Shown here one piece after another: positions 9,873 to 34,701 of a stretch of 34,758 nucleotides of DNA. The DNA lies in the NCBI RefSeq assembly GCF_020194955.2, contig NZ_JAFCIY020000015.1:1-34758 (forward strand), read 5' to 3'. This stretch comes from Desulfuromonas sp. CSMB_57 (GTDB lineage Bacteria > Desulfobacterota > Desulfuromonadia > Desulfuromonadales > Syntrophotaleaceae). The first letter of the stretch is position 1. Every line of letters begins with the position of its first letter. The notes beneath the pieces are model-generated. The model was not told the origin of the DNA and did no database searches. It worked only from the letters and a program-made list of their open reading frames with translations. The translations under genes were made by a program, and so were the position numbers.

Positions 9873-9900
9873 ACTTTTTTGCAGTCCTGGAGGGAACCTG

Positions 9901-11922: not shown

Positions 11923-11950
11923 ACGACGGCTTAGGGGAACGACAAAAACA

Positions 11951-13009: not shown

Positions 13010-14034
13010 GCCTTCGCACGGTCCTGCGCCGCTATTGCCCGCAGGGTCTGTTGTTGCTGCTGGCAGCGGCCGCCATCTGGTCACTGACCCTGGGGCGCTA
13101 TCCCGTCTCGACGGCTGAAACCGTCCGGTTTCTGCTCCACAAGCTGTTCGGATTCGGCACGCCGGAAGCGGTCCAATACCAGCTTTGGCATAATGTGCTG
13201 TGGGAGATCCGCGCTCCGCGCATCGCCGCCGCGATCCTCATCGGCTCGGCCCTGGCCACCTCAGGCTCCGCCTTCCAGGCCATGTTCATCAACCCCCTGG
13301 TGTCGCCCGGCCTGCTCGGCGTGCTGCCGGGCGCGGCCGCCGGCGCCGCTCTGGGCATGCTGCTTGACCGGGGTTGGGGCACGGTCCAGCTCTGCACCTT
13401 TGTCGGCGGCCTGGCCGCCGTGGGCCTGGCCGTAAGCCTGGCGCGCCTCTACCGCGGCGACCGGCTGCTGATGCTGATCCTCGGCGGCATCATCAGCGGC
13501 TCCCTGTTCACCTCGCTGCTGTCACTGCTCAAATACCTGGCCGACCCCAACGATCAGTTGCCGGCCATCGTTTACTGGCTGATGGGCGGCCTGTCCCTGG
13601 CGGATGCCGAAACAGTGGCCATGGTCGCCCTGCCGATGCTCACGGGTATGGCCGGCATCCTGCTGTTCGCCGGCCATCTCAATGTTTTGAGCATGGGCGA
13701 CGAAGAAGCCGGCAGCCTTGGTCTCAGGGTGCGGCAGGTGCGTTTCTGGCTGGTCCTGCTGGCGACGGTGATCAGTGCCCTGACGGTGGTCATCGGCGGC
13801 CTCATCGGCTGGGTCGGGCTGGTCATTCCCCACAGCGCCCGCATGCTGGTCGGCCCGGACAACCGCCGACTGCTGCCGGTGGCGGCGGTCCTCGGCGGCC
13901 TGTTTCTGCTCACCGTCGACAACCTGTCCCGCCTGCTGCTGCAGGTGGAAATTCCCCTGGGGATTCTTACCTCGCTGCTGGGCATTCCCTTTTTTGCCAT
14001 GGTGCTGAAAAACGCCAGGAAAGGCTGGGGGTGA
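13006..14034 (+). CDS. ABC transporter permease, FecCD/BtuC/MolB type
   Basis: A 342-residue multi-spanning inner-membrane protein. Conserved FecCD features include RAPRIAAAILIGSALATSGSAFQ (RaPR...GaaLa.sG..fQ), NPLVSPGLLGVLPGAAAGA, and near the end GLIGWVGLVIPHSARMLVGPDNR. It forms the translocation channel for the ligand carried by the upstream binding protein. The ATG at 13006 overlaps the previous stop in ATGA; an in-frame extension upstream to 12865 is a shadow of the preceding gene. The ATPase gene follows after three bases. Confidence 0.9.
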   Translation: MSLRTVLRRYCPQGLLLLLAAAAIWSLTLGRYPVSTAETVRFLLHKLFGFGTPEAVQYQLWHNVLWEIRAPRIAAAILIGSALATSGSAFQAMFINPLVSPGLLGVLPGAAAGAALGMLLDRGWGTVQLCTFVGGLAAVGLAVSLARLYRGDRLLMLILGGIISGSLFTSLLSLLKYLADPNDQLPAIVYWLMGGLSLADAETVAMVALPMLTGMAGILLFAGHLNVLSMGDEEAGSLGLRVRQVRFWLVLLATVISALTVVIGGLIGWVGLVIPHSARMLVGPDNRRLLPVAAVLGGLFLLTVDNLSRLLLQVEIPLGILTSLLGIPFFAMVLKNARKGWG

Positions 14035-14037
14035 AAC

Positions 14038-14880
14038 ATGCTGCTCGAAGCCCGCGATATCAGTTTCAGCTATGATGACCACCCGGTACTGAACAAGGTT
14101 TCCGTGGGGCTGCCGCGTGGCGGCCTGGTTTCCCTGCTCGGCCCCAACGGCTGCGGCAAAACCACCCTTTTGAAGGTTTTGCTGGGCATCTATCCGTTCC
14201 GCGGCGGCGAGGTGCGTCTCGACAACCGGCCCCTGCACAACCTGTCGCGCAAAGCCCTGGCGCGGGAAATGGCCTATGTGCCCCAACTGCACCGCGCCGC
14301 CTTTGCCTACCAGGTCCTCGATGTGGTGCTCATGGGCCGGTTGCCCCATAAAAGCTTTCTGGCGCCCTTTTCCCGCCGCGACCGGGAGCTGGCCCTGGCC
14401 GCCCTTGAGCGACTCGGCATCGCCCATCTGCGGGAGCGGACCTACACCTGCATCAGCGGCGGCGAGCGGCAACTGGTGCTCATCGCCCGAGCCCTGTGCC
14501 AGGGAGCGCATACCTTCATTCTCGATGAGCCGGTCACCGGCCTGGATTACGGCAACCAGATCCGGCTGCTGGAACAGCTCTCCAGGCTGGCGTCGGAGGG
14601 CTACACCTTCGTCAAATCCACCCATTTCCCCGATCACGCACTGTGGATTTCCAGCCATGTGGTATTGCTCAAGGACGGCCGGGTCATAGCGGAGGGCAAA
14701 CCGGAGCAAGTCATCAACAAGGACACCCTGTTCCATCTCTATGGTACCGAAGTCGACGTGTGGCCGTTGCTCGAAAATTTTCGCATCTGCGTGCCGGAAC
14801 GTATTCGGCAACGCTTCTGTAGCTGCCATGACAGTCGGCGGCCGGTTCATTTTTGTGAAACAGGAGGAAAACAATGCTGA
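14038..14880 (+). CDS. ABC transporter ATP-binding protein, FepC/BtuD/MolC type
   Basis: A 280-residue ATPase with Walker A GPNGCGKTT, Q-loop segment AYVPQLHR, signature ISGGERQLVLIARAL (Ile replacing the usual Leu) and Walker B FILDEPVTGLD. The switch histidine lies in KSTHFPDHAL, where the usual MVTHD is altered. It drives the FecCD-type permease directly upstream. The C-terminal tail (about 235-280) is longer than the core domain needs and carries two cysteines. The gene overlaps FmdE by 7 bp, binding FmdE into the same translation unit. Confidence 0.9.
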   Translation: MLLEARDISFSYDDHPVLNKVSVGLPRGGLVSLLGPNGCGKTTLLKVLLGIYPFRGGEVRLDNRPLHNLSRKALAREMAYVPQLHRAAFAYQVLDVVLMGRLPHKSFLAPFSRRDRELALAALERLGIAHLRERTYTCISGGERQLVLIARALCQGAHTFILDEPVTGLDYGNQIRLLEQLSRLASEGYTFVKSTHFPDHALWISSHVVLLKDGRVIAEGKPEQVINKDTLFHLYGTEVDVWPLLENFRICVPERIRQRFCSCHDSRRPVHFCETGGKQC

Positions 14881-15452
14881 AAGTGGAAAATCTGCAATCC
14901 ACCCTGGAACGCTGCGAGGAGTATCACGGTCATCTCTGCACCGGCCAGATCATGGGGGTGCGAATGGCCAGAAAAGGCCTGGAACTGGTGGCGGCCGAAG
15001 ACATCAAGGATCTCATCGTCTTCGTTGAAAACGACCGCTGTATTACCGATGCCATCACCATCGCCACCGGCGTGCGCCTGGGCCGACGCAGTCTGAAATT
15101 TCTCGATTACGGCAAGATGGCCGCCACCTTCGTCAACCAGCGCACGGGCAAGGCCTGGCGGGTGGCCAGTCGCGGTCACGCGGAACTGCCTCCGGCAGAG
15201 GCCAAGGCCAGGGCCCTGAAAGAAGACGATGAAATACTGCTTACCTGGCGGCCGGTCACCGTATCCTTCAACCCGGGCGATCTGCCCGGCCCGCCGGCAC
15301 GCATTGTCCAATGCGCCCGGTGCGGTGAAACGGTTCTGGATTACCGCGATGTCACTCTGTCGGGAAATACCGCCGAGCCGCTGTGCCGGGCCTGTGGCCA
15401 CGGCGCCTATTACCGGACCTGCGATACCGCCCCTGCGGCTGCCGAAGTTTAA
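14874..15452 (+). CDS. FmdE-family protein with C-terminal zinc ribbon
   Basis: A 192-residue cytoplasmic protein. The N-terminal FmdE motif CEEYHGHLCTGQIMGVRM (C14, H18, H20, C22) and the C56-containing ENDRCITDA match formylmethanofuran dehydrogenase subunit E homologues. A C-terminal zinc ribbon has CxxC pairs at C147/C150 and C171/C174. FmdE was named from methanogen molybdenum formylmethanofuran dehydrogenase; bacterial homologues often sit beside transporters, and their exact function is unsettled. It closes the methyltransferase-TonB-ABC operon and is followed by a strong terminator, suggesting that it handles the imported metal or complex in the cytoplasm. Confidence 0.87.
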   Translation: MLKVENLQSTLERCEEYHGHLCTGQIMGVRMARKGLELVAAEDIKDLIVFVENDRCITDAITIATGVRLGRRSLKFLDYGKMAATFVNQRTGKAWRVASRGHAELPPAEAKARALKEDDEILLTWRPVTVSFNPGDLPGPPARIVQCARCGETVLDYRDVTLSGNTAEPLCRACGHGAYYRTCDTAPAAAEV

Positions 15453-15513
15453 AGCACCCCACTCCCCACCCGGGCCGCGCCTCCTCGGCCCGACAGCCAT
15501 CGGGGCTTGACAC

Positions 15514-15546
15514 CCCCGGGCGGCAGGTGCCGCCCGGGGTCTTTTT
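15514..15546 (+). terminator. Rho-independent terminator after FmdE
   Basis: An 11-bp GC-rich stem (CCCCGGGCGGC and GCCGCCCGGGG, loop AGGT) is followed by TCTTTTT. It ends the operon that begins with the methyltransferase gene and separates it from the padR promoter. Confidence 0.9.
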
Positions 15547-15564
15547 CCTTGTGCGAGCCGGCTC

Positions 15565-15606
15565 TTGACAGCAATCGCTGTTCGTTATATAAGACGCTAA
15601 ATAACG
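15565..15606 (+). promoter_or_regulatory. padR promoter with overlapping ModE-box-like dyad
   Basis: TTGACA (15565-15570), a 17-bp spacer and TATAAG (15588-15593) form a near-consensus sigma-70 promoter. A 24-bp dyad at 15583-15606 covers the -10 and start region: left arm CGTTATAT, right arm AAATAACG (reverse complement CGTTATTT), with an 8-bp centre. It shares length, left-arm CGTTAT and right-arm TAAATA plus terminal CG with the dyad at 46-69. The arms resemble known ModE boxes, so Mo-dependent repression is plausible. PadR autoregulation at the same site is the alternative. Confidence 0.55.
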
Positions 15607-15620
15607 GAGGAGGTCCAATA

Positions 15621-16001
15621 GTGGATTTCAACCAATGTGCCTGTTCGGGAAAAAATCTGGCCCGTCTGGTTCGGCCGGCCGTACTGGCCTTGCTGACTCG
15701 CGGTGAGACGCATGGTTACGACCTGATGCAGCAATTGTGCGGATTGGCCATCTATGCCGATGCTCCGCCCGACACCAGCGGCGTCTACAAGGTTCTCAAA
15801 ACCATGGAGCAGGAAGGGCTGGTTTCGTCCAGTTGGGAACCGGGGGGCAGCGGACCGGCCAAGCGGCGTTATGTTCTGACTCGGGATGGCAGGGAGTGTC
15901 TGCGACGCTGGATTGAAACGCTGGAAGGCTACCGCTCTCAAATCAATGGCCTGCTGGCCATTCTTCGGCCGGATGGCAAGTCATCGCCAAGCATTGGTTA
16001 A
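15621..16001 (+). CDS. PadR-family transcriptional regulator
   Basis: A 126-residue winged-helix regulator. GTG at 15621 follows a strong GGAGGAGG, so it is preferred over the in-frame upstream ATG at 15507, which lies within the terminator region. The PadR core is clear: VRPAVLALLTRGETHGYDLMQQL, SGVYKVLKTMEQEGLV (recognition region) and KRRYVLTRDGRECLRRW. Upstream of the core is a short N-terminal C6-x-C8-S-G10 motif, which could bind a metal or sense redox. Its own promoter carries a ModE-like dyad. It precedes a tiny ORF and the NitT/TauT-type transporter, which it probably controls. Confidence 0.85.
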   Translation: MDFNQCACSGKNLARLVRPAVLALLTRGETHGYDLMQQLCGLAIYADAPPDTSGVYKVLKTMEQEGLVSSSWEPGGSGPAKRRYVLTRDGRECLRRWIETLEGYRSQINGLLAILRPDGKSSPSIG

Positions 16002-18963: not shown

Positions 18964-20019
18964 TCAATAAAGCCTGCGAAACGCCGAGGCCTTGATCGCC
19001 GCCATCACCTCTGTGCCGGGCGCAAGCCCGAGTTCCTCGACGGCTTCGCCGACGACCTGGCCGACCAGCGACTGCCCCATGCAATCGAGTTCCACGCCGA
19101 CCCGGCTGCCGACCTCGACAAGCTTCCTGACCCGGCAATGCAGCAGATTGCGGGCACTGGACGCTTCCGGATGCCGCTTGAACAGGGTAATGTCCTTGGA
19201 GGAAAGTTCAAACATGCCGGGGGCCGGGTCGACTCCGTTGAGCAGCACCAGCTCCTGCCCGCCCCAGCGATAAACCGTCAGCTCGCCGCGGGATCTGGGT
19301 TCTTCCAACTCCAGCAGATTCATGAAACCCGCCGGGCTGCTGCCCATGCATCGCAGAGCCAGTTCATCCACGGCGGTCTGGGAGCGGAATCGGCCGTTTT
19401 CGAATTCCAGCACCTGCTCGGCCATCATCTGCATTTCATTGAGGGAGTGGCTGATAAACAAAAAAGGTATGGCGAATTCTTTGAAGACGTTTTTCAGATA
19501 GGGAATGATTTGATATTTCAATCCGTCATCGAGGCCGTTGAGGGGCTCGTCCATCAGTATCAACCGCGGATTGCCGAGAATGGTTCTCCCCAGCGCCACC
19601 CTTTTGGCCTCTCCCCCGGAGAGACTGCCGACGCCCCGATCCAGCAACGGGGCAAGATTGAGCACATCGATCAAATCGTCCGCTTTGATCCGGGGCCGCG
19701 AACCGGCGACCCGCCGGTGGCCATAGAAAAGATTACGCCTGACGGACATGTGCGGAAACAGGTTGGAACTCTGGAAGACCACCCCGACATGACGCTGTTC
19801 CGGACGGAGATGAACTTTCCGGGAGGCATCGAACAACGTCTCGCCATCCAGGCGGATAAACCCGGAATCCGGTCGGAACAAGCCGGACAACAGGTTCATC
19901 AGGGTGGTTTTGCCGCTACCGGAAGGACCGAAAACTCCGATGCGACGGCCCTCGGCAGTGAAATCGGCGGCAAAGGAAAACCGTCCCAGCTGCTTTTTCA
20001 GTGAAACTTCCAGCTTCAT
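18964..20019 (-). CDS. modC: Molybdate ABC transporter ATP-binding protein
   Basis: A 351-residue ATPase with Walker A GPSGSGKTT (31-39), signature LSGGEAKRVALGRT, Walker B LILMDEPLNGLDD and switch histidine FISHSLNEM. A C-terminal TOBE/Mop-like domain (about 285-350; SSARNLLHCRV, VGVELDCMGQSLVGQVV) is diagnostic for ModC and can bind molybdate as a regulatory sensor. It overlaps modB by an ATGA junction and is the last gene of the modABC operon. Confidence 0.92.
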   Translation of the reverse strand: MKLEVSLKKQLGRFSFAADFTAEGRRIGVFGPSGSGKTTLMNLLSGLFRPDSGFIRLDGETLFDASRKVHLRPEQRHVGVVFQSSNLFPHMSVRRNLFYGHRRVAGSRPRIKADDLIDVLNLAPLLDRGVGSLSGGEAKRVALGRTILGNPRLILMDEPLNGLDDGLKYQIIPYLKNVFKEFAIPFLFISHSLNEMQMMAEQVLEFENGRFRSQTAVDELALRCMGSSPAGFMNLLELEEPRSRGELTVYRWGGQELVLLNGVDPAPGMFELSSKDITLFKRHPEASSARNLLHCRVRKLVEVGSRVGVELDCMGQSLVGQVVGEAVEELGLAPGTEVMAAIKASAFRRLY

Positions 20020-20705
20020 CGCCGTTCCTCCCTGTTCAGCCTCCGGACCATGCTTTCATTGAAGATCAATACCACCAGGGCCAGCAGCACGGATACCAGG
20101 CAAAGCCCGAGGGCCATGCCATCGCCGCCCGGGGTACTGGAATAACTGTAAATGGCCAGGGGAATGGTCTGGGTCACTCCGGGAATATTGCCGGCGATGA
20201 CGATGGTGGCACCGAATTCACCAAGACTGCGCGCAAACATCAGGGACATGCCGGCGAGTATCGAGCGACCTGCAAGCGGCAGGGTCACGGTCAGAAGGGT
20301 GTCATGCCAACCTGCGCCCAAGGTTCGCGCGGCGTGCAGCAGTTGCTTGTCGATCCCTTCCAGGCCGATGCGAATGGAGCGTACCAGCAGCGGGAAGCCC
20401 ACCACCATGGAAGCGATGACCGCTGCCTTCCAGGTAAAAATAATCCGGATACCGAAGCGTCCCAGCAGTTGCCCCAGCCAGCTGTTCCCGCCCAGGGCCA
20501 GCAGCAGCAGATAACCGACCACGACCGGCGGCAACACCAAGGGCAGGTTGATCAGGCCATCCACCAGGGCCTTGGCGCGAAAGCGGCAGAAGGCCAGCAG
20601 ATAGGCGACGCCGATGCCAAAGGGCAGGGACAGCAGGGTGGCGGCACAGGCCACCCATGCCGAAAGCTTCATGGCCTGCCAATCAGCGGGTGAAAAATCC
20701 AACAT
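20016..20705 (-). CDS. modB: Molybdate ABC transporter permease
   Basis: A 229-residue permease typical of ModB in length. It has LPLVLPPVVVGYLLLLALG, the cytoplasmic coupling loop HAARTLGAGWHDTLLTVTLPL, and ARSLGEFGATIVIAGNIPG, all strongly conserved in ModB. The ATG at 20705 lies eight bases after a GGAG site and is preferred over the GTG at 20714. It forms the membrane channel with ModC, to which it is coupled by a 4-bp overlap. Confidence 0.93.
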   Translation of the reverse strand: MLDFSPADWQAMKLSAWVACAATLLSLPFGIGVAYLLAFCRFRAKALVDGLINLPLVLPPVVVGYLLLLALGGNSWLGQLLGRFGIRIIFTWKAAVIASMVVGFPLLVRSIRIGLEGIDKQLLHAARTLGAGWHDTLLTVTLPLAGRSILAGMSLMFARSLGEFGATIVIAGNIPGVTQTIPLAIYSYSSTPGGDGMALGLCLVSVLLALVVLIFNESMVRRLNREERR

Positions 20706-20749
20706 CTTGCGCACTCCAGAAGGCAGAACCGATGCGGCCCGGGGGCCCT

Positions 20750-21496
20750 TTACCTGATAACGAACCCATACTGCTCAAGGATCTTTCCTGCCTCGGCCCC
20801 ACGCAGATATTTCATGAAGGCCTTGACTTCCGGTTTGGCGGCACCCTGGATGGTGACTCCCACCGGGTAAGTAACCTGATCATAGAGGTCTGCCGGCACT
20901 TCATAGAGGATGCCGGCACTCTTGGCCAAAAGGGCATCCGTCTTATATACGAAAGCGGCGTCGGCTTCGCCGCGATCCGCATACAGCAGGGCCTGCCGCA
21001 CATCCTGGGCCATGACCAGCCTTGCGACCAGACTCGAATAAATGCCGGCCGCCTGCATGGCCTGTTCGGCATATTTCCCGGCGGGGACGCTTTGCGGACT
21101 GCCGATGGCGATGAGTCTGAGCTTGCTCAGGTCCTTCATGCTGGAAATTTTCAGTTTTTTGTCGCCGACCACGACCAGGGCATTGTATGCTAAAACCTTG
21201 ACATCCCGGGGCGCGACAAACCCTTTACCAACCAGGTAGTCCATCCAGTCGGTGCTGGCGGAAATAAAAATGTCGGCGGGCGCCCCCTGTTCCACCTGCT
21301 TGGCCAAGGCGCCTGAAGCACCGAAATTGGGCAGAATTTTGACATCGGGATGCTTTTGTTCATAACCCGCGATCATCTGCTTGACCGCATCGCTCATGCT
21401 TGCCGCCACGGACAGACGCACCTCTCCTGAAAAAGCGGCAGTGACGGAGAAGAATACGCCGAAAAGTATCGCCAACACGGTTCTGGCTGCCAACAT
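20750..21496 (-). CDS. modA: Molybdate-binding periplasmic protein
   Basis: A 248-residue binding protein with signal peptide (LAILFGVFFSVTAAFSG). The mature start EVRLSVAASMSDAVKQMIAGYEQ, then PNFGASGALAKQVEQGAPADIFISASTDWMD, are standard ModA ligand-loop motifs. VVGDKKLKISSMKDLSKLRLIAIGSPQSVPAGKYAEQAM and EADAAFVYKTDA are also typical. The ATG at 21496 follows AAGGAA; an upstream in-frame extension to 21529 is not supported. It is transcribed divergently from the XRE-PBP regulator and starts the modABC operon. Confidence 0.93.
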   Translation of the reverse strand: MLAARTVLAILFGVFFSVTAAFSGEVRLSVAASMSDAVKQMIAGYEQKHPDVKILPNFGASGALAKQVEQGAPADIFISASTDWMDYLVGKGFVAPRDVKVLAYNALVVVGDKKLKISSMKDLSKLRLIAIGSPQSVPAGKYAEQAMQAAGIYSSLVARLVMAQDVRQALLYADRGEADAAFVYKTDALLAKSAGILYEVPADLYDQVTYPVGVTIQGAAKPEVKAFMKYLRGAEAGKILEQYGFVIR

Positions 21497-21580
21497 GATG
21501 AGTTCCTTTCTTCCTGATGCAGGATGCATGAGCCGAGGAAAGTTTTGCGAACCGAGCGAGGATGCGGTGGTTGCAGAATG

Positions 21581-21616
21581 GACAAAATAATGCCATATTG
21601 GATATTATCATGTCAA
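21581..21616 (-). promoter_or_regulatory. modA promoter/operator shared with the TonB operon
   Basis: On the minus strand TTGACA (21616-21611) is followed after 18 bp by CATTAT (21592-21587), pointing toward modA. The whole 36-bp stretch matches 8636-8671 at 28 ungapped positions. An inner dyad ATAAT-N12-ATTAT spans 21587-21608. It runs right up to and across the start codon of the divergent regulator at 21610, so a bound protein could control both directions. Confidence 0.6.
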
Positions 21617-22671
21617 AAGAAAACTTGACGGTTCACAATTTCGTTCGTCGCTTTCGCGAAGAGCGCGGCTGGTCGCAACAGGATCTGGCAGAGCGCGCCG
21701 GCCTTTCCCGAACCGGTATCAGCGGCATTGAAGCAGGACGCCTGATCCCGTCCACCGCCGCCGCCCTGGCCCTGGCAGCCATATTCGGTTGCCGGGTCGA
21801 GGATCTCTTTGTCCTGACCGGCAACGAGGCCGCCCAGTGGGCCTGGCCGCCGCCCGGCAAAACCTGCCGCTACTGGCGAGCCATCATCGGAGCCAGGCAT
21901 TGGCTCTATCCGGTGGAGGTCAGCCCCCTCGGCACGGTGCCCCATGACGGTGTCTGGCGGGACGGGAAATGCAACGATCACGAGTTTGCCGATCCGGTTC
22001 GCACCCTGGTGGTGGCCTGTTGCGATCCCGCGGTTGCCGTCCTGGCCGCGGAATATGCCCGGCAAACCCCTTTTCGCATGCTGGTGCTGCCGCGCTCCAG
22101 CCGCGCCGCCCTGGAACTGCTGGCGGCCGGCCTGGTCCATGCAGCGGGAGTCCATCTGGCCGACGCGGACAGCAAGGCAGGAAACCGCGATGCGGTGGCC
22201 CAAACCGTCCAAAATCCCTTCCAGTTGCTGCGCATCGCCGATTGGGATGAAGGCTTGGCCCTGGCGCCGGGCCTGGCCACCACCGCCATTGAAACCCTGA
22301 TTGAGTCGAAGTTGCAATGGATCGGCCGCGAACCGGGTTCCGGCGCCCGCCGGGTGCTCGATGAGATCACGCAAAACCGCATTTCTCTTTCCCACTTGGC
22401 CAGAGATCATCGGGGGGTGGCTCAGGCGATTCGCCATGGTTTTGCCCAGGCCGGCGTTTCCCTGCGCCTGGTCTGCGAAGAGGAAGGCGTCGATTTCTTA
22501 TCCGTATGCAGTGAAGCCTATGATTTCTGCATCCTGCAATCGAGCGTCGACGACCCCCGCATCCGAGGACTGGTCGACGTCATTCAATCGACGGTTTACC
22601 GGAACCTGATCGGTGAGTTGCCCGGTTACGACAACCGTCGCACCGGCGAAATGGAGTCCACCGACGGGTAG
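21610..22671 (+). CDS. XRE-family regulator with periplasmic-binding-protein-like sensor
   Basis: A 353-residue one-component regulator. The N-terminal XRE helix-turn-helix (about 5-65) reads FVRRFREERGWSQQDLAERAGLSRTGISGIEAGR. The rest matches the cytoplasmic PBP-like domain of the COG1910 type: LVVACCDPAVAVLAAEY, LLAAGLVHAAGVHLAD, QLQWIGREPGSGARRVLDE and VSLRLVCEEEGVDFL variants. These proteins commonly sit beside molybdate or tungstate transporters and are thought to sense the oxyanion. The ATG at 21610 is chosen because it begins the HTH region, although the ribosome site is weak; the open frame extends to 21562. It probably governs divergent modABC and, via the matching site at 8636, the TonB operon. 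Confidence 0.85.
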   Translation: MSKENLTVHNFVRRFREERGWSQQDLAERAGLSRTGISGIEAGRLIPSTAAALALAAIFGCRVEDLFVLTGNEAAQWAWPPPGKTCRYWRAIIGARHWLYPVEVSPLGTVPHDGVWRDGKCNDHEFADPVRTLVVACCDPAVAVLAAEYARQTPFRMLVLPRSSRAALELLAAGLVHAAGVHLADADSKAGNRDAVAQTVQNPFQLLRIADWDEGLALAPGLATTAIETLIESKLQWIGREPGSGARRVLDEITQNRISLSHLARDHRGVAQAIRHGFAQAGVSLRLVCEEEGVDFLSVCSEAYDFCILQSSVDDPRIRGLVDVIQSTVYRNLIGELPGYDNRRTGEMESTDG

Positions 22672-26323: not shown

Positions 26324-27142
26324 TTAATCCGCCTGAGGGATCGCGGCCGCTTCAAATCCGTAATCCCGCAGAATGCCTTGCCCCTGGGGCGACAGGATGA
26401 ACATGGCCAGCCGCCATGCCTCCTCGGCGGCCCCTTTCCTGACGATGAGGCCGTAATCGGCACCCACGGACAGATTGTCCGGCACCCGGACAATCTGAAG
26501 CGCCGGGACTTCCTTTTGCGCCAGCACCGCATTGGTGCAGTAGGTCAGAAACACATCGGCCTGCTTTTCGGTCATGACCCAACCATAAGGGTTGCGACCT
26601 TCGGGAGCCTTGGCGCTGTCGGGTCCGCCGGTCAACTGCAGGGCCTTGCCGGAAAGGGTGTCGAAACTCCCGGTTTTGATGCCGTCAGCCTTTTTAAAGA
26701 GTTCCCACGCGTAGTCCCCGCTCGGATCCGCCTTCGGAGTCGAGGTTCCTACCCGAATCTTCCTGTCCATCATAACCTTGTAGAGATTGTCGGTGGTCAC
26801 CGCCAGACCGGGCTGCGCCAGACCACAGAGTTGATTCCGAGTGAACAGTACCACCGGACTGCCCCATCCGGCGGCGGCCAGGGTTTTCGGATGGTTCATG
26901 TCCGCAGAAGCAAATACATCGGGCTTTTCACCTGCTTCGATGGATTTGCGCAACAGTCCGCTGGGGCCGAATTTGGTGGTCACCTTGGTGCCATAGGCAT
27001 TTTCATAGGCGGCCACCACATCGCTGAGAGCAGCCTTCAAGCTGCCCGCGGCATAGAGGGTCAGGGACTCGGCCGACACGGCCAGAGGCGCAGAAAAAAC
27101 CAGCAGAGCCACCATCGTCAGGAACTTTTTACCAAACTTCAT
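26324..27142 (-). CDS. Orphan ModA-like molybdate/tungstate-binding protein
   Basis: A 272-residue binding protein with signal peptide (FLTMVALLVFSAPLAVSA). The mature start ESLTLYAAGSLKAALSDVVAAYE, then KFGPSGLLRKSIEAGEKPDVFASADMNHP, are the canonical ModA ligand loops. SPVVLFTRNQLCGLAQPGL and GTSTPKADPSGDYAWELF also fit. GGGGGAAATT precedes the ATG. No permease or ATPase gene is adjacent, so it must work with one of the other transporters here or act as a scavenger or sensor. A perfect dyad ATAAAAA-GA-TTTTTAT (27210-27225) lies in its leader, and a ModE-like box lies further upstream. Confidence 0.88.
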   Translation of the reverse strand: MKFGKKFLTMVALLVFSAPLAVSAESLTLYAAGSLKAALSDVVAAYENAYGTKVTTKFGPSGLLRKSIEAGEKPDVFASADMNHPKTLAAAGWGSPVVLFTRNQLCGLAQPGLAVTTDNLYKVMMDRKIRVGTSTPKADPSGDYAWELFKKADGIKTGSFDTLSGKALQLTGGPDSAKAPEGRNPYGWVMTEKQADVFLTYCTNAVLAQKEVPALQIVRVPDNLSVGADYGLIVRKGAAEEAWRLAMFILSPQGQGILRDYGFEAAAIPQAD

Positions 27143-28013: not shown

Positions 28014-28060
28014 TGCCATGCAAAAAAGGCCCCTCACAGAGGGGCCTTTTTTGCATGGCA
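28014..28060. terminator. Bidirectional terminator with 22-bp arms
   Basis: Perfect 22-bp arms surround the loop ACA: the left arm runs 28014-28035 and the right arm 28039-28060. Each arm carries GGCCCC-type sequence next to a run of six A or T, so it can end transcription both from the YHS gene (plus) and from the APC permease operon (minus). Confidence 0.92.
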
Positions 28061-28091: not shown

Positions 28092-29435
28092 TCAAGAAGG
28101 TGCGGCAACTTGGTCCGTGCCGGAATCTGCAAGCAGGCGCCGCCGGCGCTGCAAGAGATAGCAGGGCAACCCGCTCAGGGTCATCAACAGCCCCAGCAAG
28201 GCAGGTCCGGGTCGATCCCGGACAATCTGGACCAGAATCAACAGATACCCGCCCATGAACAATAGCGGCACCAAGGGATACCCCCAGGCCCGATAAAGTC
28301 GCGGCGTTTCCGGCCTCCGGAAGCGCAACACGAACAGGGCCAGACCGCAAGCCAGGCAGGACAAGACCATGACCGCCACGACGTAGCTAAGCAACTGGTC
28401 GAAGGTGCCCAGCACCAACAGCAGGATCCCCAACAGTGCCTGGCAGGCCAGGGCGACGGTCGGGGTGCGGTATTTCGGATGCAGATGGCCAAGTCGCACC
28501 GCGAAGAGTCCGTCTCGGCCCATGGCATAGGCGACCCGCGATCCGGTCATGACTGTCGCATTGATGCCGGCGGCAATAGCCAATATGATGGGCAGGGAAA
28601 CCCATCGCGCTACGCCCGACCCATAGAGCGACTGCAGGACCACTTGAGCGACGTTGGTGGCCCCGGCCAGCTCGGTCAAGGGCAGGGCCGTCACATAGAC
28701 CAGATTGATCAACAGGTAAATGACCGTCACCGCCAGGGTGCCGAAAATCAATGCCCGGGGCAGATTGCGCTGTGGATTGCTGATTTCGCCGCCGACATAG
28801 GCGGCGGCGAACCAGCCACTGAAGGTGAAAAGAACCGCGATCATGGGCCCGCCGAACATGCGCGACCAGCTTAACGGCATTGGTGCGACGCCGGTCAAGA
28901 GTTCCCAATTCACCCCCGGTGCCGCCAGACCCGCCAGCACCAGCCCCCCCAGAAGCGCCAGAGTTCCCAAGGCGAACAGGTTCTGGGTGGTGCCCCCGGG
29001 ACGAATGCCCAGCCAGTTGATGGCCGTAAAGATCAAAATCAGCCCGCCGCCAAGAACCATTTCGGAAACGCCGTTCAGCAGCGGCAGCGCCATCCGCAGA
29101 TAACTGGCCAAGGCGATGGACAGGGCAGCAATGGAGCCGGGATTGATGACCCAGAACGCCACCCAGCCCAACAGAAAACCGGCCCAGGGTCCGAAAGCTT
29201 CCTTGAGAAACTGATAATCACCGCCGGAGCGGGGAAACATCCCGGCCAACTCCGCATAGGTCAGCGCGCCGCACAGGGACAGCACGCCGCCCAGTACCCA
29301 GATACCCAGAAACAACCAGGGATGGGACAGTTCGCCGGCCAGAAAACCACTGGTGGTAAAAATGCCGGCACCGATGACATTGCCGATAATGAGCAGCACT
29401 GCATCGACCAAGGTCAGGCGACGACTCAAACTCAC
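28092..29435 (-). CDS. APC-superfamily amino acid permease
   Basis: A 447-residue membrane protein with about 12 hydrophobic segments. The N-terminal NVIGAGIFTTSGFLA is the GxGIF substrate-binding motif of the APC superfamily, and AELAGMFPRSGGDYQFLKEAFGPWAGFLLGW is typical of LAT-like members. VGGEISNPQRNLPRALIFG is also conserved. It likely imports or exchanges an amino acid. It overlaps the upstream tetrapyrrole-methylase fusion gene by ATGA (29432-29435), so it is the last gene of that operon. An amino acid carrier beside haem-handling proteins has no obvious explanation. Confidence 0.88.
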   Translation of the reverse strand: MSLSRRLTLVDAVLLIIGNVIGAGIFTTSGFLAGELSHPWLFLGIWVLGGVLSLCGALTYAELAGMFPRSGGDYQFLKEAFGPWAGFLLGWVAFWVINPGSIAALSIALASYLRMALPLLNGVSEMVLGGGLILIFTAINWLGIRPGGTTQNLFALGTLALLGGLVLAGLAAPGVNWELLTGVAPMPLSWSRMFGGPMIAVLFTFSGWFAAAYVGGEISNPQRNLPRALIFGTLAVTVIYLLINLVYVTALPLTELAGATNVAQVVLQSLYGSGVARWVSLPIILAIAAGINATVMTGSRVAYAMGRDGLFAVRLGHLHPKYRTPTVALACQALLGILLLVLGTFDQLLSYVVAVMVLSCLACGLALFVLRFRRPETPRLYRAWGYPLVPLLFMGGYLLILVQIVRDRPGPALLGLLMTLSGLPCYLLQRRRRLLADSGTDQVAAPS

Positions 29436-31198
29436 TCGACCATCCCTTCCGCAACCAACCGCGGACCGATATAGACCAAACCGAGGGTTTTTTCCGATTC
29501 GGCCCGCACTTGGTTGGCGGCCTGATTCAGGTTGGTCCTCACCAGTTTTTCGCTACCGGCAATACCTGCCGAATAGACCAGGGCCACAGGGGTTTGCCCG
29601 TCATAGTAGCGTTGCAGGAGGGGGACCAGTTTTTCGAATTCCCACATGGCCAGAAACAGGGCCATGGTTTCGCCGTTGGCGGCCGCCGCCTGCAGCAGTA
29701 ATTCGTTTTGGCGCAACCCCTCAGGCCCGGAAATGATGATGGATCCGGTGCCGGTGATGTCCCGGTTGATAACGGCGTTGGCGGCGTTGAAGGAACTCAT
29801 GGCCGGAATGGTGACGATTTGATCCTCGTTGAAATACTCCCGCACCCAGCGACTGCTGCCATAGATCATGGGATCGCCCCAATCCATGAAAGCAATACTG
29901 CGACCGTCGGCCAGCACCTCCTTGAGCTTTTTGATCTCACCGGCCCGCAACCGGGCCAGCATTTCGTCGAGTTGCTCTTCCGGCAAATCCGGCTGTTGGC
30001 GCCGATAGACGCCACGAATGAACTGCAGGGGATCAAAAAGATTTTCCTTGCCCCTCAGGTAATGGCCGAAACGCTTGACAATATCGGCCGGCGCCGCCAT
30101 GACGTCGACGCGGGCCAGAGCCGACAGGGCCTCCAGAGTGATCAGATCCGTATCACCGGGGCCGACGCCGATGATGTACAACTTGCCCGGTTGCCGCAAA
30201 TCCACTACCTCGATGCGCACCACGGCCTGGATATCGCGATCTTCGGTCAGTTCGTCCGGCACGATCATGGTGAATTTACCGCCGAAATCCTTGAAACTTT
30301 GCCCGTTTTTGGCCGTGGCAACAATGATGCGCCGCCCCTCGGGCGAAAGAAACAGTTCCCCCATGGCGAACAGGGCTCGATAGCCGTCGGGCGCCGAGAC
30401 CAGCACGGCCTTTTCCAGGTCCGGTTGTACGCCGGCCTGTTCCAGCAACTTCACCAGGGGAACGCCCCGGTACCGGTGCAGGCCCCGGAAACCGTGACTG
30501 CCGCCAAACAATTTCTTATGCACCTCGATTTGCGGATGACGAGACAAGTCCTTCAGTTCCAAAGGCTTGCCGACTAAACCGTCGATCCGGAAAGAATCGG
30601 AATAAAGGCGTGCCGAACGATCGATACGAATGTCGGGGTGCAGATCCATAACCTCGATACTGACCACATCCTCCAGGTAGCGCTCGGTATAGAAATCCCC
30701 GGTCAACAACAGTTTCGGCAATCCGACCCGACGTTGGAGGGTGGCCAACTGCGTCTTGTCGCCGGGATGGCGCGGAATGACTGGGTCCGCGCTCAGGGCA
30801 ATGGTGACCTCGGCCGGGTTGCTGTAATAGACCTCGCCCCAGGACAGCACCACCTGGCGCCCCTGACGATCGCGAACCCGGATGGCCACATCGATCGGCT
30901 TGGCGAAATCGGACGCCTCCTTTTGGATATGCGCCATGTCCAACAGGGTTTTCAGGGGTACCGCTCGGTGCTGAAAAAAGCCGTGGAAGCGTCCTTGCCG
31001 ATCCACTTCGTTGGCCTGTACGGTTACGGTCTGCAACCGCCCCAAGTCTTCGAGGGTCAGTCGCTGGGGATTTTTGACAATGCCGCTGATCGCCAGAACT
31101 GCCGGGGCGGCGGGCTTGTCATCGGCGGCCCAAATCGGCGCAGCCGTCAACAAAGCAATCAGCAAAGTGAATACGGACCATACGTTCCAATTCTTCAA
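29432..31198 (-). CDS. Exported SUOX-like/tetrapyrrole methylase fusion (copy without haem motif)
   Basis: A 588-residue protein. A TTG start at 31198 lies seven bases after GGAG, followed by a signal peptide (about 5-25). Two SUOX-like domains follow (about 33-185 and 200-335), with GFFQHRAVPLKTLLDMA and GLHRYRGVPLVKLLEQAGV plus VLVSAPDGYRALF. The C-terminal quarter starts YIIGVGPGDTDLITLEALSAL (GVGPGD at 344-349) and has DWGDPMIYGSSRWVREYF and AMSSFNAANA. This is the tetrapyrrole methylase (TP_methylase) fold that uses SAM. It is a clear paralogue of the neighbour at 31278, but lacks that protein's CxxCH segment: PVIPRHPGDKTQ replaces the longer region. No molybdenum-ligating Cys is visible. 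Confidence 0.8.
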   Translation of the reverse strand: MKNWNVWSVFTLLIALLTAAPIWAADDKPAAPAVLAISGIVKNPQRLTLEDLGRLQTVTVQANEVDRQGRFHGFFQHRAVPLKTLLDMAHIQKEASDFAKPIDVAIRVRDRQGRQVVLSWGEVYYSNPAEVTIALSADPVIPRHPGDKTQLATLQRRVGLPKLLLTGDFYTERYLEDVVSIEVMDLHPDIRIDRSARLYSDSFRIDGLVGKPLELKDLSRHPQIEVHKKLFGGSHGFRGLHRYRGVPLVKLLEQAGVQPDLEKAVLVSAPDGYRALFAMGELFLSPEGRRIIVATAKNGQSFKDFGGKFTMIVPDELTEDRDIQAVVRIEVVDLRQPGKLYIIGVGPGDTDLITLEALSALARVDVMAAPADIVKRFGHYLRGKENLFDPLQFIRGVYRRQQPDLPEEQLDEMLARLRAGEIKKLKEVLADGRSIAFMDWGDPMIYGSSRWVREYFNEDQIVTIPAMSSFNAANAVINRDITGTGSIIISGPEGLRQNELLLQAAAANGETMALFLAMWEFEKLVPLLQRYYDGQTPVALVYSAGIAGSEKLVRTNLNQAANQVRAESEKTLGLVYIGPRLVAEGMVE

Positions 31199-31277
31199 TG
31201 CAATACTCCCTCACACAAATTCTTCCATCCCGAAAGCCGCATGCAGCCTTGCAGGGTCCGAGGTCCCTCACAGACAA

Positions 31278-33074
31278 TCAGGGCCAGGCTCCGGCTTGGT
31301 GCGCCAGCGCCGGACCGACATAAATCAGACCGAGAAACTTTTCCTCTTCGTCAGCAAGTTTTTTGCTTACTTCATCGAGGGTGGTCCGTACCAGCTTCTC
31401 CCGACCGGAAATGCCGGCCGCATAGGCCAGGTTGACCGGCGTGCCGCCCACATAGTGTTTCCTGAACAGAGGCAGCAACTCCTGGAAATCCTTGAGACCC
31501 ATGAATATGGCCAGGGTATCGCCATTGGCGGCCACAGCGCGCAGCAGGTCCTCGTTGCGCCGCAAACCGTCAGGCGCGGAAATGATGATGGAGCCATTGC
31601 CGCCGATATCCCGCGCAACCATGGCATTGGCCGCATTGAAGGAACTCATGGCCGCCACGCTGACGATTTCATCCTCCTCAAAATAGTTGCGCACCCAGCG
31701 ACTGCTGCCGTAAATAAGGGGATCGCCCCAATCCAGAAAGGCCACGCTGCGCCCTGCGGCCAGGGCCGCCTTGATCTTCTTCACCGGCTCCTGCCGCATG
31801 GTATCGAGCCGGCGGTCAATCTCCTCTTTGGACAACTGGGGATTCTGCCGGGTGAATAGCGGACGGGCCATCTTCAGGGGATCGAACAGCTGCTCCTTGC
31901 CGGTAAGATAGGGAGCGAAACGCTTGGCGATATCGTCCGGTGCCGCCATGGCGTCGGCTTTCTGCAAGGCGGACAAGGCCTCCAGGGTAATGAGACTGGT
32001 ATCGCCGGGGCCAACGCCGATGATGAACAATTTTGCCCGTTGCCTCAAATCGACCACTTCGATACGGTCGACAGCTTGCACGTCGCGGTCATCGGTCAAC
32101 TCGTCTGGTACAATCATGGTGAACCTGCCGCCCGGGTCCTGAAAGGGCTTGCCGTTCTGGCTGGCGGCCACAATGATGCGGCGTCCGAGGGGAGAAAGAA
32201 ACAGTTCGCCCATGGCAAACAGAGCCCGGTAACCATCGGGGGCGGAAACCAGCACCGCCTGGTCCAGTTCGGGCTTGACGCCGGCGGCTTCAAGGAGCTT
32301 GACCAGCGGCACACCACGATAGCGATGCAAACCATGATAACCGCGCCCGGTGCCCACCACCTTTTTCTGGACTTCGATCTGCTCGTAACGGGCCAGATTG
32401 CTTATCTCCATAGGCTTGTCCACCGTCCCGGCAATACGAAATGATTTTGAGTAGGGTTTTGCCGAGCGGTCCACACGAATGTCCGGATGCAGATCCAGGA
32501 CTTCGATGCTGACAACATCCTCCAGGTTTCGATCATTGAAAAAATCACCGGTGAGCAACAATTTGGGGAATCCCACCCGCCGTTTAAGCACGTCCAAAGC
32601 CGGCTGGTATTCGGCGGGGCTGTGGCAGGAGGCGCAGTTGGCGGCCGAGTGTCTGGGCATGACCGGCTCCGCGCTGTAGGCAAGGGCGATCTCCCCGGGA
32701 TTGCTGTAAAATATCTCCCCCCACGAAAGCACCACCTGGCGCCCCTGGCGATCCCGCAAGCGGACCGCCACATCGACCGGTTTGGTAAAATCCTGGGCTT
32801 CCTTTTCGATCAGGGCCATTTCCAGCAACGTTCGCAGCGGCACTGCCTGGTATCGGAAAACACCATGGAATCGGCCGTCCCGGCTCACTTCGTTCATTTG
32901 CAAGGGAATCGATCGAAATTTGGCCAAATCATCCAGGGTCAGGCGTAAGGGATGTTTGACGATGCCGCCAACGGTCAGCACCGGGGGAGCAGGGTCCGCG
33001 GCCCGCAGCCGCGGGATGCCGATGAGGGCAACCAGCAGCAAACCAAAGGCGGCGGCAAAGGCGACTTTTTTCAT
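31278..33074 (-). CDS. Exported SUOX-like/tetrapyrrole methylase fusion with haem c motif
   Basis: A 598-residue protein starting MKKVAFAAAFGLLLVAL. The ATG at 33074 overlaps the ResB-like stop (ATGA) and follows AAGGAG; the frame upstream to 33134 is rejected. The signal peptide is about 1-25. The first SUOX-like domain (about 32-195) contains a haem c motif C147-A-S-C150-H151. The second spans about 210-345 (GLHRYRGVPLVKLLEAAGV). The TP_methylase domain starts LFIIGVGPGDTSLITLEAL (GVGPGD 353-358) and carries DWGDPLIYGSSRWVRNYF. An exported protein has no obvious access to SAM, so the methylase fold may bind a tetrapyrrole without catalysis, or the protein may not be fully exported. Co-expression with CcsA/ResB-like proteins suggests a haem-related role. 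Confidence 0.8.
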   Translation of the reverse strand: MKKVAFAAAFGLLLVALIGIPRLRAADPAPPVLTVGGIVKHPLRLTLDDLAKFRSIPLQMNEVSRDGRFHGVFRYQAVPLRTLLEMALIEKEAQDFTKPVDVAVRLRDRQGRQVVLSWGEIFYSNPGEIALAYSAEPVMPRHSAANCASCHSPAEYQPALDVLKRRVGFPKLLLTGDFFNDRNLEDVVSIEVLDLHPDIRVDRSAKPYSKSFRIAGTVDKPMEISNLARYEQIEVQKKVVGTGRGYHGLHRYRGVPLVKLLEAAGVKPELDQAVLVSAPDGYRALFAMGELFLSPLGRRIIVAASQNGKPFQDPGGRFTMIVPDELTDDRDVQAVDRIEVVDLRQRAKLFIIGVGPGDTSLITLEALSALQKADAMAAPDDIAKRFAPYLTGKEQLFDPLKMARPLFTRQNPQLSKEEIDRRLDTMRQEPVKKIKAALAAGRSVAFLDWGDPLIYGSSRWVRNYFEEDEIVSVAAMSSFNAANAMVARDIGGNGSIIISAPDGLRRNEDLLRAVAANGDTLAIFMGLKDFQELLPLFRKHYVGGTPVNLAYAAGISGREKLVRTTLDEVSKKLADEEEKFLGLIYVGPALAHQAGAWP

Positions 33075-33841
33075 GGGTCCTCTCCTTTGCGCAATTTCAA
33101 AATTCCGGGGAAATACCAGAGCATCAAAAGACACAAAACGCCATTGCCCAACAGAATCAGCAGCATGCCGGGATCACGCTTCACGGTGATGCCCATATCC
33201 GGAATCCGATAGGGTTGGTTGTCCTGCGGCTTGCCGACCATGCCCAAATGCAGGCTGAGGCCCTGCCAGTACACCGGCTCCAGAATTTCCACGCTGCGCC
33301 ACTCGGAGCGACCGTTGGCCGTCAACTCAAGATCCGCCCGGCATTGTTCGAGACTGCCGGGCGGCAGGGGGGCTCCGGTAAAACGGCATTGATAATCCAG
33401 CACCGCGATGTGTCGGCCGGCCAGTTCCAGCGAAGCGCCGGCCCGGGCCGGCAGACCGGTCTTGACGCCGGTAAAATCGGTCAGGGCATGGCCCATGAGC
33501 AGCAGCAGGAAGCAACCATGCATCACCGAAGGCGCCAGCAACAGGCAGAACAGGTAGGGCTGATGCTGGCCGCGTCGCTGCCAAAGAAACAGGACCCGGT
33601 TCAAGGTACAGGCGAAAGTGTTGATGCCCAACAGGGTCAGCAGGGCGAGCAGGCTCAGCAACCACCAGGCATGCCATCCCGAATGCTGCATGAACCAGGG
33701 CAGCAGCAGATTGCGGTTCAGCAAATCGTAAACCGGTAGGAATTTGGCGTGAAAACTGCCGATGAACAGGTTGAGGGAGAGAAGCACCAGCAGCCAAAGG
33801 GTCAAGCGGAGGCCGGCCAGCCAATTCCAAAATGTTCTCAT
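33071..33841 (-). CDS. ResB-like cytochrome c biogenesis protein, short form
   Basis: A 256-residue membrane protein. The ATG at 33841 starts MRTFWNWLAGLRLTLWLLVLL; the frame extends upstream to 34099 but overlaps the CcsA-like gene. The N-terminal W-L-x-x-L-R-L-T-L-W pattern, the second span with LLGINTFACTLNRVLFLW, a third hydrophobic span and a periplasmic beta-rich loop (ELAGRHIAVLDYQCRFTG) fit ResB/Ccs1. Normal ResB proteins are much longer, so the large periplasmic domain is reduced. It would pair with the upstream CcsA-like protein in system-II-type haem handling, and is coupled to the downstream fusion gene by ATGA. Confidence 0.72.
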   Translation of the reverse strand: MRTFWNWLAGLRLTLWLLVLLSLNLFIGSFHAKFLPVYDLLNRNLLLPWFMQHSGWHAWWLLSLLALLTLLGINTFACTLNRVLFLWQRRGQHQPYLFCLLLAPSVMHGCFLLLLMGHALTDFTGVKTGLPARAGASLELAGRHIAVLDYQCRFTGAPLPPGSLEQCRADLELTANGRSEWRSVEILEPVYWQGLSLHLGMVGKPQDNQPYRIPDMGITVKRDPGMLLILLGNGVLCLLMLWYFPGILKLRKGEDP

Positions 33842-33843
33842 GA

Positions 33844-34701
33844 TCAGCGCTCCTCCCGGCCGGTGGTGTTCATGGCTTCGATCGCCGCGGGCAACTCCGG
33901 GCCCGCCGCCTCGACAACCGTACCGGTTACAACCTGTTCCGGTTTTGCCTTGGCTGCGAACAGGGTCATATAGGGCACCACCTGCAGGACATAACCGAAG
34001 ACCAGCATCAGGCCGGCGCCGGTCAACGCCCAGCGCGCCTTGTGGCGCAAAGTCACGGCACGATCGAAATGGGTGTGGAGGTAGCCGCAATAGCAGCACC
34101 AGATGGCCGCCGACTGCAGGTGCCGCTCACTCCAGTGAAACAGGGTCGCCCAGCCCAGGTAGCTCCAGATGGCTCCGACAATCTGCGCCAGGCTGTAAAG
34201 GATGAAGCCCCAGATGGCCAGGCTGTTGAACAACGTGCCCTGGTAACGGCCGCGCAGAAAGCGCCAGGCAAACCAGCCGGCCAGCAACCAGCAGGCCGTG
34301 GCCAGGACTTCGAGAAAGAAGAATGCCGGGGAAAACAGGGTCGCGCTGAACGGCCCCGGAGCCGGCAGGGAGATGGGCAGCAGCAAGCCCAGCAGGGCGG
34401 CAATGGCGGTGGGCCAGACGATGGAGGCGGCGTCCTCGCTTTTTTTCCACAACAACAGCAAAGCCAGCAGCGCAAAGCACCAGGGCAGGAAATGGCTGAC
34501 GTTGAACACACCGTTGAGGGAAAACACGCCCCAGGACCAGGAGCGGGTCAACAGAGACAGGGTATGAAAACCGAATCCGGTCGCCAGCAGAATCGTCATC
34601 CAGGCGGACCGGCTTGGGCGCAGGCAGTGAAAAATCAGGCTGCCGGCGTAACCGCCGACAGCCCCAATCAACAACATAGAGGAGGCATCAGTTGTGCTCA
34701 T
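33844..34701 (-). CDS. CcsA/ResC-like membrane protein, divergent
   Basis: A 285-residue protein with about eight hydrophobic segments. It resembles CcsA/ResC haem-handling proteins: FGFHTLSLLTRSWSWG and FNVSHFLPWCF in the N-terminal half (candidate haem-ligand H46), and IVGAIWSYLGWATLFHWSER then HLQSAAIWCCYCGYLH (174-209) in the position of the tryptophan-rich WWD signature. The usual W-G-x-x-W-x-W-D core is degraded: LFHWSER has no aspartate after the tryptophan. Candidate histidine H209 persists. GAGGG precedes the ATG. Only two bases separate it from the ResB-like gene. It may handle haem differently or for a dedicated partner. Confidence 0.7.
   Translation of the reverse strand: MSTTDASSMLLIGAVGGYAGSLIFHCLRPSRSAWMTILLATGFGFHTLSLLTRSWSWGVFSLNGVFNVSHFLPWCFALLALLLLWKKSEDAASIVWPTAIAALLGLLLPISLPAPGPFSATLFSPAFFFLEVLATACWLLAGWFAWRFLRGRYQGTLFNSLAIWGFILYSLAQIVGAIWSYLGWATLFHWSERHLQSAAIWCCYCGYLHTHFDRAVTLRHKARWALTGAGLMLVFGYVLQVVPYMTLFAAKAKPEQVVTGTVVEAAGPELPAAIEAMNTTGREER

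Follow-up and report, generated by a model that had tools for sequence, protein, structure and literature searches.

A minus-strand operon of predicted secreted SUOX–TP_methylase fusions with CcsA-like, ResB-like and exchanger-type partners in Desulfuromonas sp. CSMB_57

The window analysed here is the 34,758-nucleotide stretch NZ_JAFCIY020000015.1 of Desulfuromonas sp. CSMB_57, an entire contig of a 3.14-Mb genome. Its right-hand end is occupied by a minus-strand operon encoding two proteins, F1 and F2, in each of which SUOX-like domains are fused to a TP_methylase domain. The genes are transcribed in the order CcsA-like membrane protein (compact, 285 amino acids; 33844–34701), ResB-like membrane protein (also compact; 33071–33841), F1 (31278–33074), F2 (29432–31198, TTG start) and an amino-acid-type permease of the APC superfamily and LAT-exchanger type (28092–29435, GTG start). 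The ATG of the ResB-like gene at 33841 lies 2 nucleotides (nt) past the CcsA-like stop, the F1 ATG at 33074 lies in a 4-nt overlap with the ResB-like stop, F1 and F2 are separated by 79 nt, and the permease GTG lies in a 4-nt overlap with the F2 stop. An earlier note on this DNA had described a single expression unit at 29432–34701 in which all junctions overlap or nearly do. The genes are present, with two overlapping junctions and one near overlap, but the F1–F2 gap departs from that description, and the unit left out the permease and the TonB receptor of relatives, which are the more constant partners. The permease is probably the final gene, because a 20-bp hairpin with A/T runs, a possible bidirectional terminator, comes right after it (28014–28060); the hairpin was found by consensus scan only, and that scan of the window gave 13 terminator-like sites against 10.6 expected.

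In relatives a TonB receptor gene stands first in the operon. The contig end at 34758, immediately upstream of the CcsA-like gene, cuts the window operon on this side, and the contig of a near-identical locus, L033, likewise breaks at the operon's TonB receptor (L and G numbers are our labels for loci and genomes). Searching the window genome for the operon's own receptor with the L033 fragment recovered only paralogues of 30–33% identity, so the receptor gene probably lies in an assembly gap.

Both fusions matched PF00590 (TP_methylase; F2 131.3 bits, F1 125.6 bits, cut-off 27.8), and each contains two stretches matching PF00174 (Oxidored_molyb; 36.3 and 40.0, cut-off 24). The two SUOX-like domains are mutual repeats (hhalign probability 99.4, E 1.1e-21). 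F1 consists of a leader, SUOX-like domain 1 with an insertion containing the sequence CASCH, SUOX-like domain 2 and the TP_methylase domain; F2 has the same architecture and 63% identity to F1. Both retain an intact GVGPGD motif of the S-adenosylmethionine (SAM) site and an intact second SAM loop. CASCH, at residue 147 of F1 counted from the ATG, is a CxxCH haem-c motif and holds the only two cysteines of this protein, while F2 has neither a CxxCH nor any cysteine. By inspection, both leaders are Sec-like and lack a twin arginine.

An AlphaFold model of F1 was made from 23 sequences, with the F1 row starting one codon before the ATG (predicted local distance difference test score, pLDDT, 83.4; predicted template modelling score, pTM, 0.70). 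In the VIA comparison, whose rows hardly covered SUOX domain 1, the model matched sulfite dehydrogenase 2blf (Z 16.0), sulfite oxidase 3hbg (Z 15.7 over 140 residues), the pterin-binding protein PruR 7rkb (Z 14.5, 1.9 Å over 121 of 146 residues) and the precorrin-4 methyltransferase CobM 3ndc (Z 14.8, 3.3 Å over 226 residues). The first two matches, and a molybdenum-cofactor (Moco) riboswitch in relatives, would suit a periplasmic molybdoenzyme of the sulfite-oxidase kind that carries haem c and has the TP_methylase domain as a structural appendage. However, with no cysteine in F2 and none in F1 beyond CASCH, neither can ligate Mo in the manner of SUOX enzymes. The only other frequent cysteine of the SUOX-like domains (domain 1, F1 alignment residue 184) occurs in just 10 of the 23 fusions, and PruR, a Mo-free pterin binder, fits the fold as well. 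Identity as a SUOX-type molybdoenzyme was ruled out because neither F1 nor F2 offers a cysteine that could serve as the ligand, and we regard the wider explanation as extremely unlikely. According to the accessible part of one paper, a missing Mo-binding cysteine is what separates PruR from Mo enzymes (PMC13259868). F1 and F2 share with PruR a secreted SUOX fold without this cysteine, but their SUOX-like domains are doubled, fused to a methylase and often accompanied by haem c; the likeness is one of sequence and fold only.

In related proteins, a hydrophobic leader, scored by script as a mean hydropathy of 2.1 or more over 11 residues, lies ahead of the first domain in 54 of 58 cases. A leader is also found at the N-terminus in L134, in the first L137 protein and in the upstream open reading frame (ORF) of L127, and none in L138. 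The TP_methylase domains are thus predicted to be secreted, and their export from the cell interior is almost certain. The earlier note was right about the paired SUOX-like domains, the methylase with GVGPGD and the signal peptides. Its suggestion that the methylase domain might stay cytoplasmic is unlikely, given the Sec-like leader, the CxxCH of many members and the exported SUOX-like or DUF4198 domains ahead of the methylase. The paradox that it raised, a methyl-transfer fold where its donor SAM is not known to be, stands; we know of no periplasmic SAM pool.

The distribution of these proteins was determined by profile searches. With F1 alone as query against genome contigs there was no match, and with the alignment as query there were nine loci, among them L041, which from its ORFs looks like a corrin cluster. 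The fusion is present in 8 of 13 other genomes of the same family. Run against 277 class genomes, a profile of the exported domain matched 24 at E 1e-30; the G200 match (109.5 bits) resembles a corrin cluster, and setting it aside leaves about 23. Among 395 sampled phylum genomes, the profile matched 39 at E 1e-40. The window's own genome is counted in both totals. Named relatives belong to Desulfuromonadales, Pelobacter, Desulfobulbaceae, Syntrophus and deltaproteobacterial metagenome-assembled genomes. We read 49 loci, a subset of the matches, 20 of them chosen, mostly top-ranked, from the phylum list; several run into a contig end, and these loci also served in part to build the neighbour profiles. 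The methylase is SUOX-fused in 33 (counting L127, which is in two frames) and unfused in 16. Some of these proteins have unusual architectures. L028 (8604–10391) encodes a fusion with an F1-like front and an F2-like back, through recombination or assembly collapse. In L134 (2413–3975) DUF4198 is fused to the exported TP_methylase, and the adjoining TonB receptor is split over two ORFs. Two tandem TP_methylase domains are found in one exported protein in L139 (6023–7798) and L142 (6074–7780), together with DUF4198 and the exchanger; the L139 protein may be a lipoprotein.

A tree was constructed from 60 exported domains and 21 distinct controls (23 less two duplicates), the controls being other TP_methylases met in the searches and not assigned to families by profile. 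The exported rows were picked by a score above 100 bits against the A2 profile and not by secretion, the L084 corrin-cluster enzyme (110 bits) was placed among the controls by hand, and ten partial control domains were skipped; one control, L041 7752–8630, has a hydrophobic N-terminus too. In IQ-TREE, the 38 SUOX-fused domains, including the divergent L137 copy, formed one side of a branch (ultrafast bootstrap, UFBoot, 99; Shimodaira–Hasegawa-like approximate likelihood ratio test, SH-aLRT, 93 in a second run). The 22 unfused domains likewise formed one side of a branch (UFBoot 98, SH-aLRT 73), and eight controls grouped with them at UFBoot 57.

Across the 60 domains, the residues of the SAM site were, in order, G in 59/60, G in 48/60, D in 56/60 and then GD in 59/60 and 60/60, with the L029 SAM loop, made up of unknown letters, scored as gaps. 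The asparagines of an SxFNxxNA motif (57/60 and 55/60) and the glycine of an AG pair (60/60) are unlike the commonest control residues. Because the SAM-site residues are mostly kept while these other positions differ from the controls, we read the exported TP_methylases as enzymes that have taken on a new substrate, not as a fold in decay. On balance, we infer that they use SAM in catalysis.

The permease matched PF13520 (E 7.4e-57), and its nearest PDB entry was the LAT-type exchanger 6f2g (E 9.3e-54, near full length), which we take to be BasC. In the 277 class genomes, 19 full-length permeases scored above 550 bits against the exchanger profile, with the next scores at 340, and 16 of the 19 adjoin an exported TP_methylase (one gene lies between in G258). 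The profile was built from 10 of the 19; among the nine outside it, six are linked to an exported TP_methylase, three of these in the genus of a profile member. Unlike other LAT-type exchangers, which the permease resembles over nearly its full length, it belongs to a sequence-distinct clade found mostly beside exported methylases. Since exchanger genes adjoin exported TP_methylases, transport of SAM and S-adenosylhomocysteine (SAH) is proposed as its putative function. The linkage is the best available hint of SAM and SAH crossing the membrane, and we put the chance that the exchanger carries them at somewhat below even.

Within 6 kb of the methylase genes, the 49 loci encode a TonB receptor in 37, the exchanger in 32, ExbB in 16, a ResB-like protein in 16, a CcsA-like protein in 15, FmdE in 8 and FecCD in 5. 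FmdE, DUF364 or FecCD lie close to some fusions. This export and uptake context is well supported, and the exported methylases are likely to take part in TonB-linked uptake of a metal–ligand complex. Directly ahead of the TonB receptor gene, three of the seven same-family loci searched (L025, L026 and L027) have an Mo/W-cofactor riboswitch. Rfam searches (E up to 1) of 20 pieces, mostly upstream regions, gave only the Mo element of L025 (= L106) and one cobalamin element. In the available passages of one paper, DUF364, a domain found here beside type-B fusions, has a proposed role with metal chelators of the pterin or flavin type (PMC2954201). Unfused relatives have CbiM/CbiQ nearby in L139, FeoB near L080 and cobalamin riboswitches in L079. 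DUF4198, presumably linked to Ni/Co uptake, was found only with unfused methylases, within 6 kb in L079, L139, L141 and L142 and as part of the L134 protein. We read this as a methylase module that serves different metals, with Mo/W as our best guess for the SUOX-fused group.

From what is observed here (the domains, their leaders, the order of the genes, partners that recur and SAM-site motifs that are retained), we read the operon as a TonB-fed periplasmic methyltransferase unit that processes a metal–ligand complex, and give this broad form a probability of about 0.4. The complex handled in this lineage would most likely be one of Mo or W. The TonB receptor, encoded beyond the contig end, would import the complex into the periplasm, where the SUOX/PruR-like domains of secreted F1 and F2 would hold the ligand or a pterin moiety rather than Mo through a cysteine. 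The haem c of F1 may pass an electron, and the TP_methylase domains would add a methyl group to the ligand, either a tetrapyrrole or a chelator of the pterin type, thereby freeing the metal or making it transportable. The LAT-type exchanger would bring SAM into the periplasm and take SAH out, and the compact CcsA/ResB pair would handle haem or a related macrocycle at the membrane. A more far-reaching proposal is an extracytoplasmic SAM economy in anaerobic bacteria, in which a dedicated exchanger swaps SAM for SAH across the inner membrane and secreted relatives of precorrin methylases free metals by methylation of the imported ligand (Mo/W for fused, Co/Ni/Fe for unfused methylases). Under this proposal, SUOX-fused enzymes might act on the pterin dithiolene of imported Moco or W-cofactor, with methylation of its sulfurs releasing the metal. 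We consider this proposal doubtful.

Several observations weigh against the periplasmic methyltransferase reading. Three of the 19 exchanger genes were not seen beside a TP_methylase: those of G116 and G197 sit at contig ends, and that of G198 lies in the order TonB receptor–CcsA–ResB–permease–ExbB with no fusion at that place. In the stretches read around six type-B loci (L074–L078 and L085), neither a TonB receptor nor an exchanger nor CcsA/ResB lies nearby. The Mo/W riboswitch turned up in a single genus and was not found in L022, L023, L024 or L029 nor in the other loci searched; the Mo/W link rests on this genus plus context. The 60 exported domains were placed together with a support of 0.539 in an unrooted FastTree tree, this split was absent in IQ-TREE, and p-AU (approximately unbiased test) was 0.36. 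The idea of one clade for the whole exported set was dropped on these values, and a single origin of export for the fused and unfused groups is neither shown nor rejected. Finally, the third glycine of the SAM loop is alanine in 9/60 domains, its proline is present in just 23/60, the loops of L123 and one L131 copy are strongly altered, and type-B loops are altered too.

This loop variation would suit a repurposed TP_methylase fold, acting as a non-catalytic periplasmic binder that receives a tetrapyrrole or chelate from the TonB receptor and hands it to an importer in the inner membrane, with the exchanger moving an amino-acid-like part of the cargo. The fusion of TP_methylase to SUOX/PruR-type and DUF4198 modules would fit such a binder as well, as would the FecCD importers beside the fusion in five of the six type-B loci. 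Yet F1 and F2 keep both GVGPGD and the second SAM loop unaltered, and the G and GD that are near-invariant across the set would be needless for a binding cleft. The linkage to the exchanger is also left unexplained, and we consider a repurposed fold rather unlikely.

The CcsA-like protein matched TIGR03144 (E 1.3e-9, 38.1 bits, under the cut-off of 187.6) and PF01578 (28.9, just under the cut-off of 29.9), and its family profile matched the CcsA chains of PDB entries 25vk (3.8e-5) and 7s9y (0.0023). In an alignment of 15 sequences, W179, GW183–184, W190 and H209 are invariant. At what we take to be the position of the WWD motif, the aspartate is not kept in the window copy; W179, W184 and W190, three tryptophans of the haem-handling motif, stay in 15/15. 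The window ResB-like protein had no Pfam match and did not reach the PF05140 cut-off, a relative in L026 matched PF05140 below cut-off (E 4.6e-5), and the ResB-like profile gave only chance-looking matches against PDB sequences. The AlphaFold model of the ResB-like protein (pLDDT 85.0) matched CcsBA 7s9y in the VIA comparison with Z 11.0 (3.5 Å, 214 residues), with CcmF trailing at Z 7.1 and unrelated rows at or below 6.6. The earlier identification of CcsA- and ResB-like partners thus holds, for the one protein by sub-cut-off profiles and PDB matches and for the other by its model. The pair has the CcsA tryptophans, ResB fold and adjacent genes of CcsBA, the system II haem exporter and cytochrome c synthase, but is compact, does not keep the WWD aspartate in the window copy and is not coupled to CxxCH.

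The position of F1, with its CASCH, downstream of CcsA/ResB, and a CxxCH in 16 of the 23 aligned fusions, would fit a side branch of cytochrome-c maturation, in which F1 receives its haem from the pair and has it modified by the methylase domain. Elsewhere in the window genome, a canonical ResB and CcsA adjoin each other, which would make the operon pair special. CxxCH and CcsA/ResB do occur together in most same-family loci and in L072, and in divergent form in L126 and L140. Against such a branch, the pair in L033, L123 and L131, and at least ResB in L038, is encoded at loci where the only fusion lacks CxxCH. The reverse is seen in L073, L124, L125, L129 and the type-B loci, which encode CxxCH and, over the stretch read, no such pair; the unfused proteins listed lack CxxCH. 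With the motif and the pair turning up independently of each other, CcsA/ResB is not just a lyase for the haem of the fusion; a dedicated haem lyase as its main role was set aside, and we consider the side branch very unlikely. The novel haem-modifying process put forward in the earlier note is not favoured either, because of this independence and because neighbours and regulation point to Mo/W in some relatives and Co/Ni or Fe in others.

Two further loci bear on the CcsA/ResB-like pair. In L079 (14854–19249), a cobalamin riboswitch is followed by a CcsA/ResB-like pair, Peripla_BP_2 and FecCD in what looks like a corrinoid uptake operon, an arrangement consistent with a role of such pairs on imported macrocycles. 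In L109 (2137–7353), TonB receptor, CcsA-like, ResB-like and exchanger genes follow in this order, and no fusion stands between the last two; the genome carries a type-B fusion at another place.

The closest TP_methylases to F1 and F2 by fold and profile are precorrin methylases. The precorrin and cobalt-precorrin methyltransferases (CobM/CbiF, CobI/CbiL; PF00590) share their fold and SAM-site motifs, but F1 and F2 are predicted to be secreted, differ in the SxFNxxNA and AG residues, and have TonB receptors encoded alongside in relatives. The NCBIfam corrin equivalogs were not reached (best 74.8 against 259.65 for CobM/CbiF, and 58.7 against 163.25), and these cut-offs together with gene context rule out identity as a vitamin B12 (corrin-pathway) enzyme. 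The kinship to precorrin methylases, and the movement of haem by the CcsA-like proteins of known systems, would accord with a methylated porphyrin-type metallophore being made outside the cytoplasm, released and then re-imported through the TonB receptor. In the ORF tables, however, which were scored against a reference-family set only, no recurrent porphyrin-making or porphyrin-exporting gene lies beside the methylase. The window genome has six TP_methylase matches, F1 and F2 among them, which also speaks against this explanation, and we judge it quite unlikely. It was put forward in passing in the Pelobacter carbinolicus genome paper of 2012 (PMC3543383). One paragraph there notes three tetrapyrrole methyltransferases beside ligand-gated channels, one of them also a c-type cytochrome, and suggests novel porphyrins for other metals; the available passages hold no discussion of SAM export, an exchanger or distribution (PMC3543383). 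The Pcar_0191/Pcar_0192 neighbourhood is most likely a direct relative, our L024, and we infer that the genes of that paragraph match L024 and L032. The earlier statement that no such system had been described was therefore nearly right, this paragraph excepted. We found no other literature on secreted TP_methylases in a search outside which most subscription papers and supplements lay.

HmuS is a CobN-like chelatase and ChuW a radical-SAM enzyme, and their folds are unrelated to TP_methylase. The likeness of the operon to these systems is in concept only, as oxygen-free processing of an imported metal–tetrapyrrole. In the accessible parts of the respective papers, HmuS of Bacteroidota is linked to haem uptake through TonB, iron release being assigned to the periplasm (PMC13227078), and ChuW to SAM-dependent anaerobic breakdown of haem (PMC6018153). 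SAM-dependent chemistry is usually regarded as limited to compartments with their own synthesis or import of SAM. Widespread and hardly noticed exported methylases of the B12 type would mean that either the cell exports SAM or the fold has a new job, and secreted methylases found across a phylum, together with an exchanger to match, turn the existence of a SAM pool in the bacterial periplasm into a question directly testable on one transporter and one soluble enzyme. If true, the proposed unit would be a new route of metal acquisition, here probably of Mo/W, in anaerobes reliant on W- and Mo-enzymes.

Other parts of the window also contain genes of metal uptake. A Moco-II RNA (RF01713; 8789–8832, plus strand; 61.3 bits, gathering 35) lies about 19 kb from the 3' end of the operon, and the window genome has five Moco-II matches. 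A second plus-strand cluster at 9039–15452 encodes a methyltransferase, a TonB receptor, Peripla_BP_2, FecCD, an ABC ATPase and FmdE. It is outside the CcsA-to-permease operon, and similar components flank fusions in other genomes. Its methyltransferase has 40% identity to one in the L137 locus and a weak CpaM-like match. With the Moco-II RNA first and a PadR regulator also present, the region 8789–16001 looks like a second Mo/W-type uptake cluster. Two ModA genes and one ModB gene scored above NCBIfam cut-offs and WtpB/WtpC-like genes below; these ModA, ModB and Wtp-like genes (20016–21529, 26324–27142 and 180–2067) and a PBP_like regulator (21562–22671) look like a molybdate/tungstate island. 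Of the remaining genes, 4458–5612 encodes a protein with two CxxCH and a sub-cut-off TSP3-repeat match as its only Pfam match, and 6266–7750 a DNA-repair protein that joins Ada metal-binding, AraC helix–turn–helix and AlkA domains.

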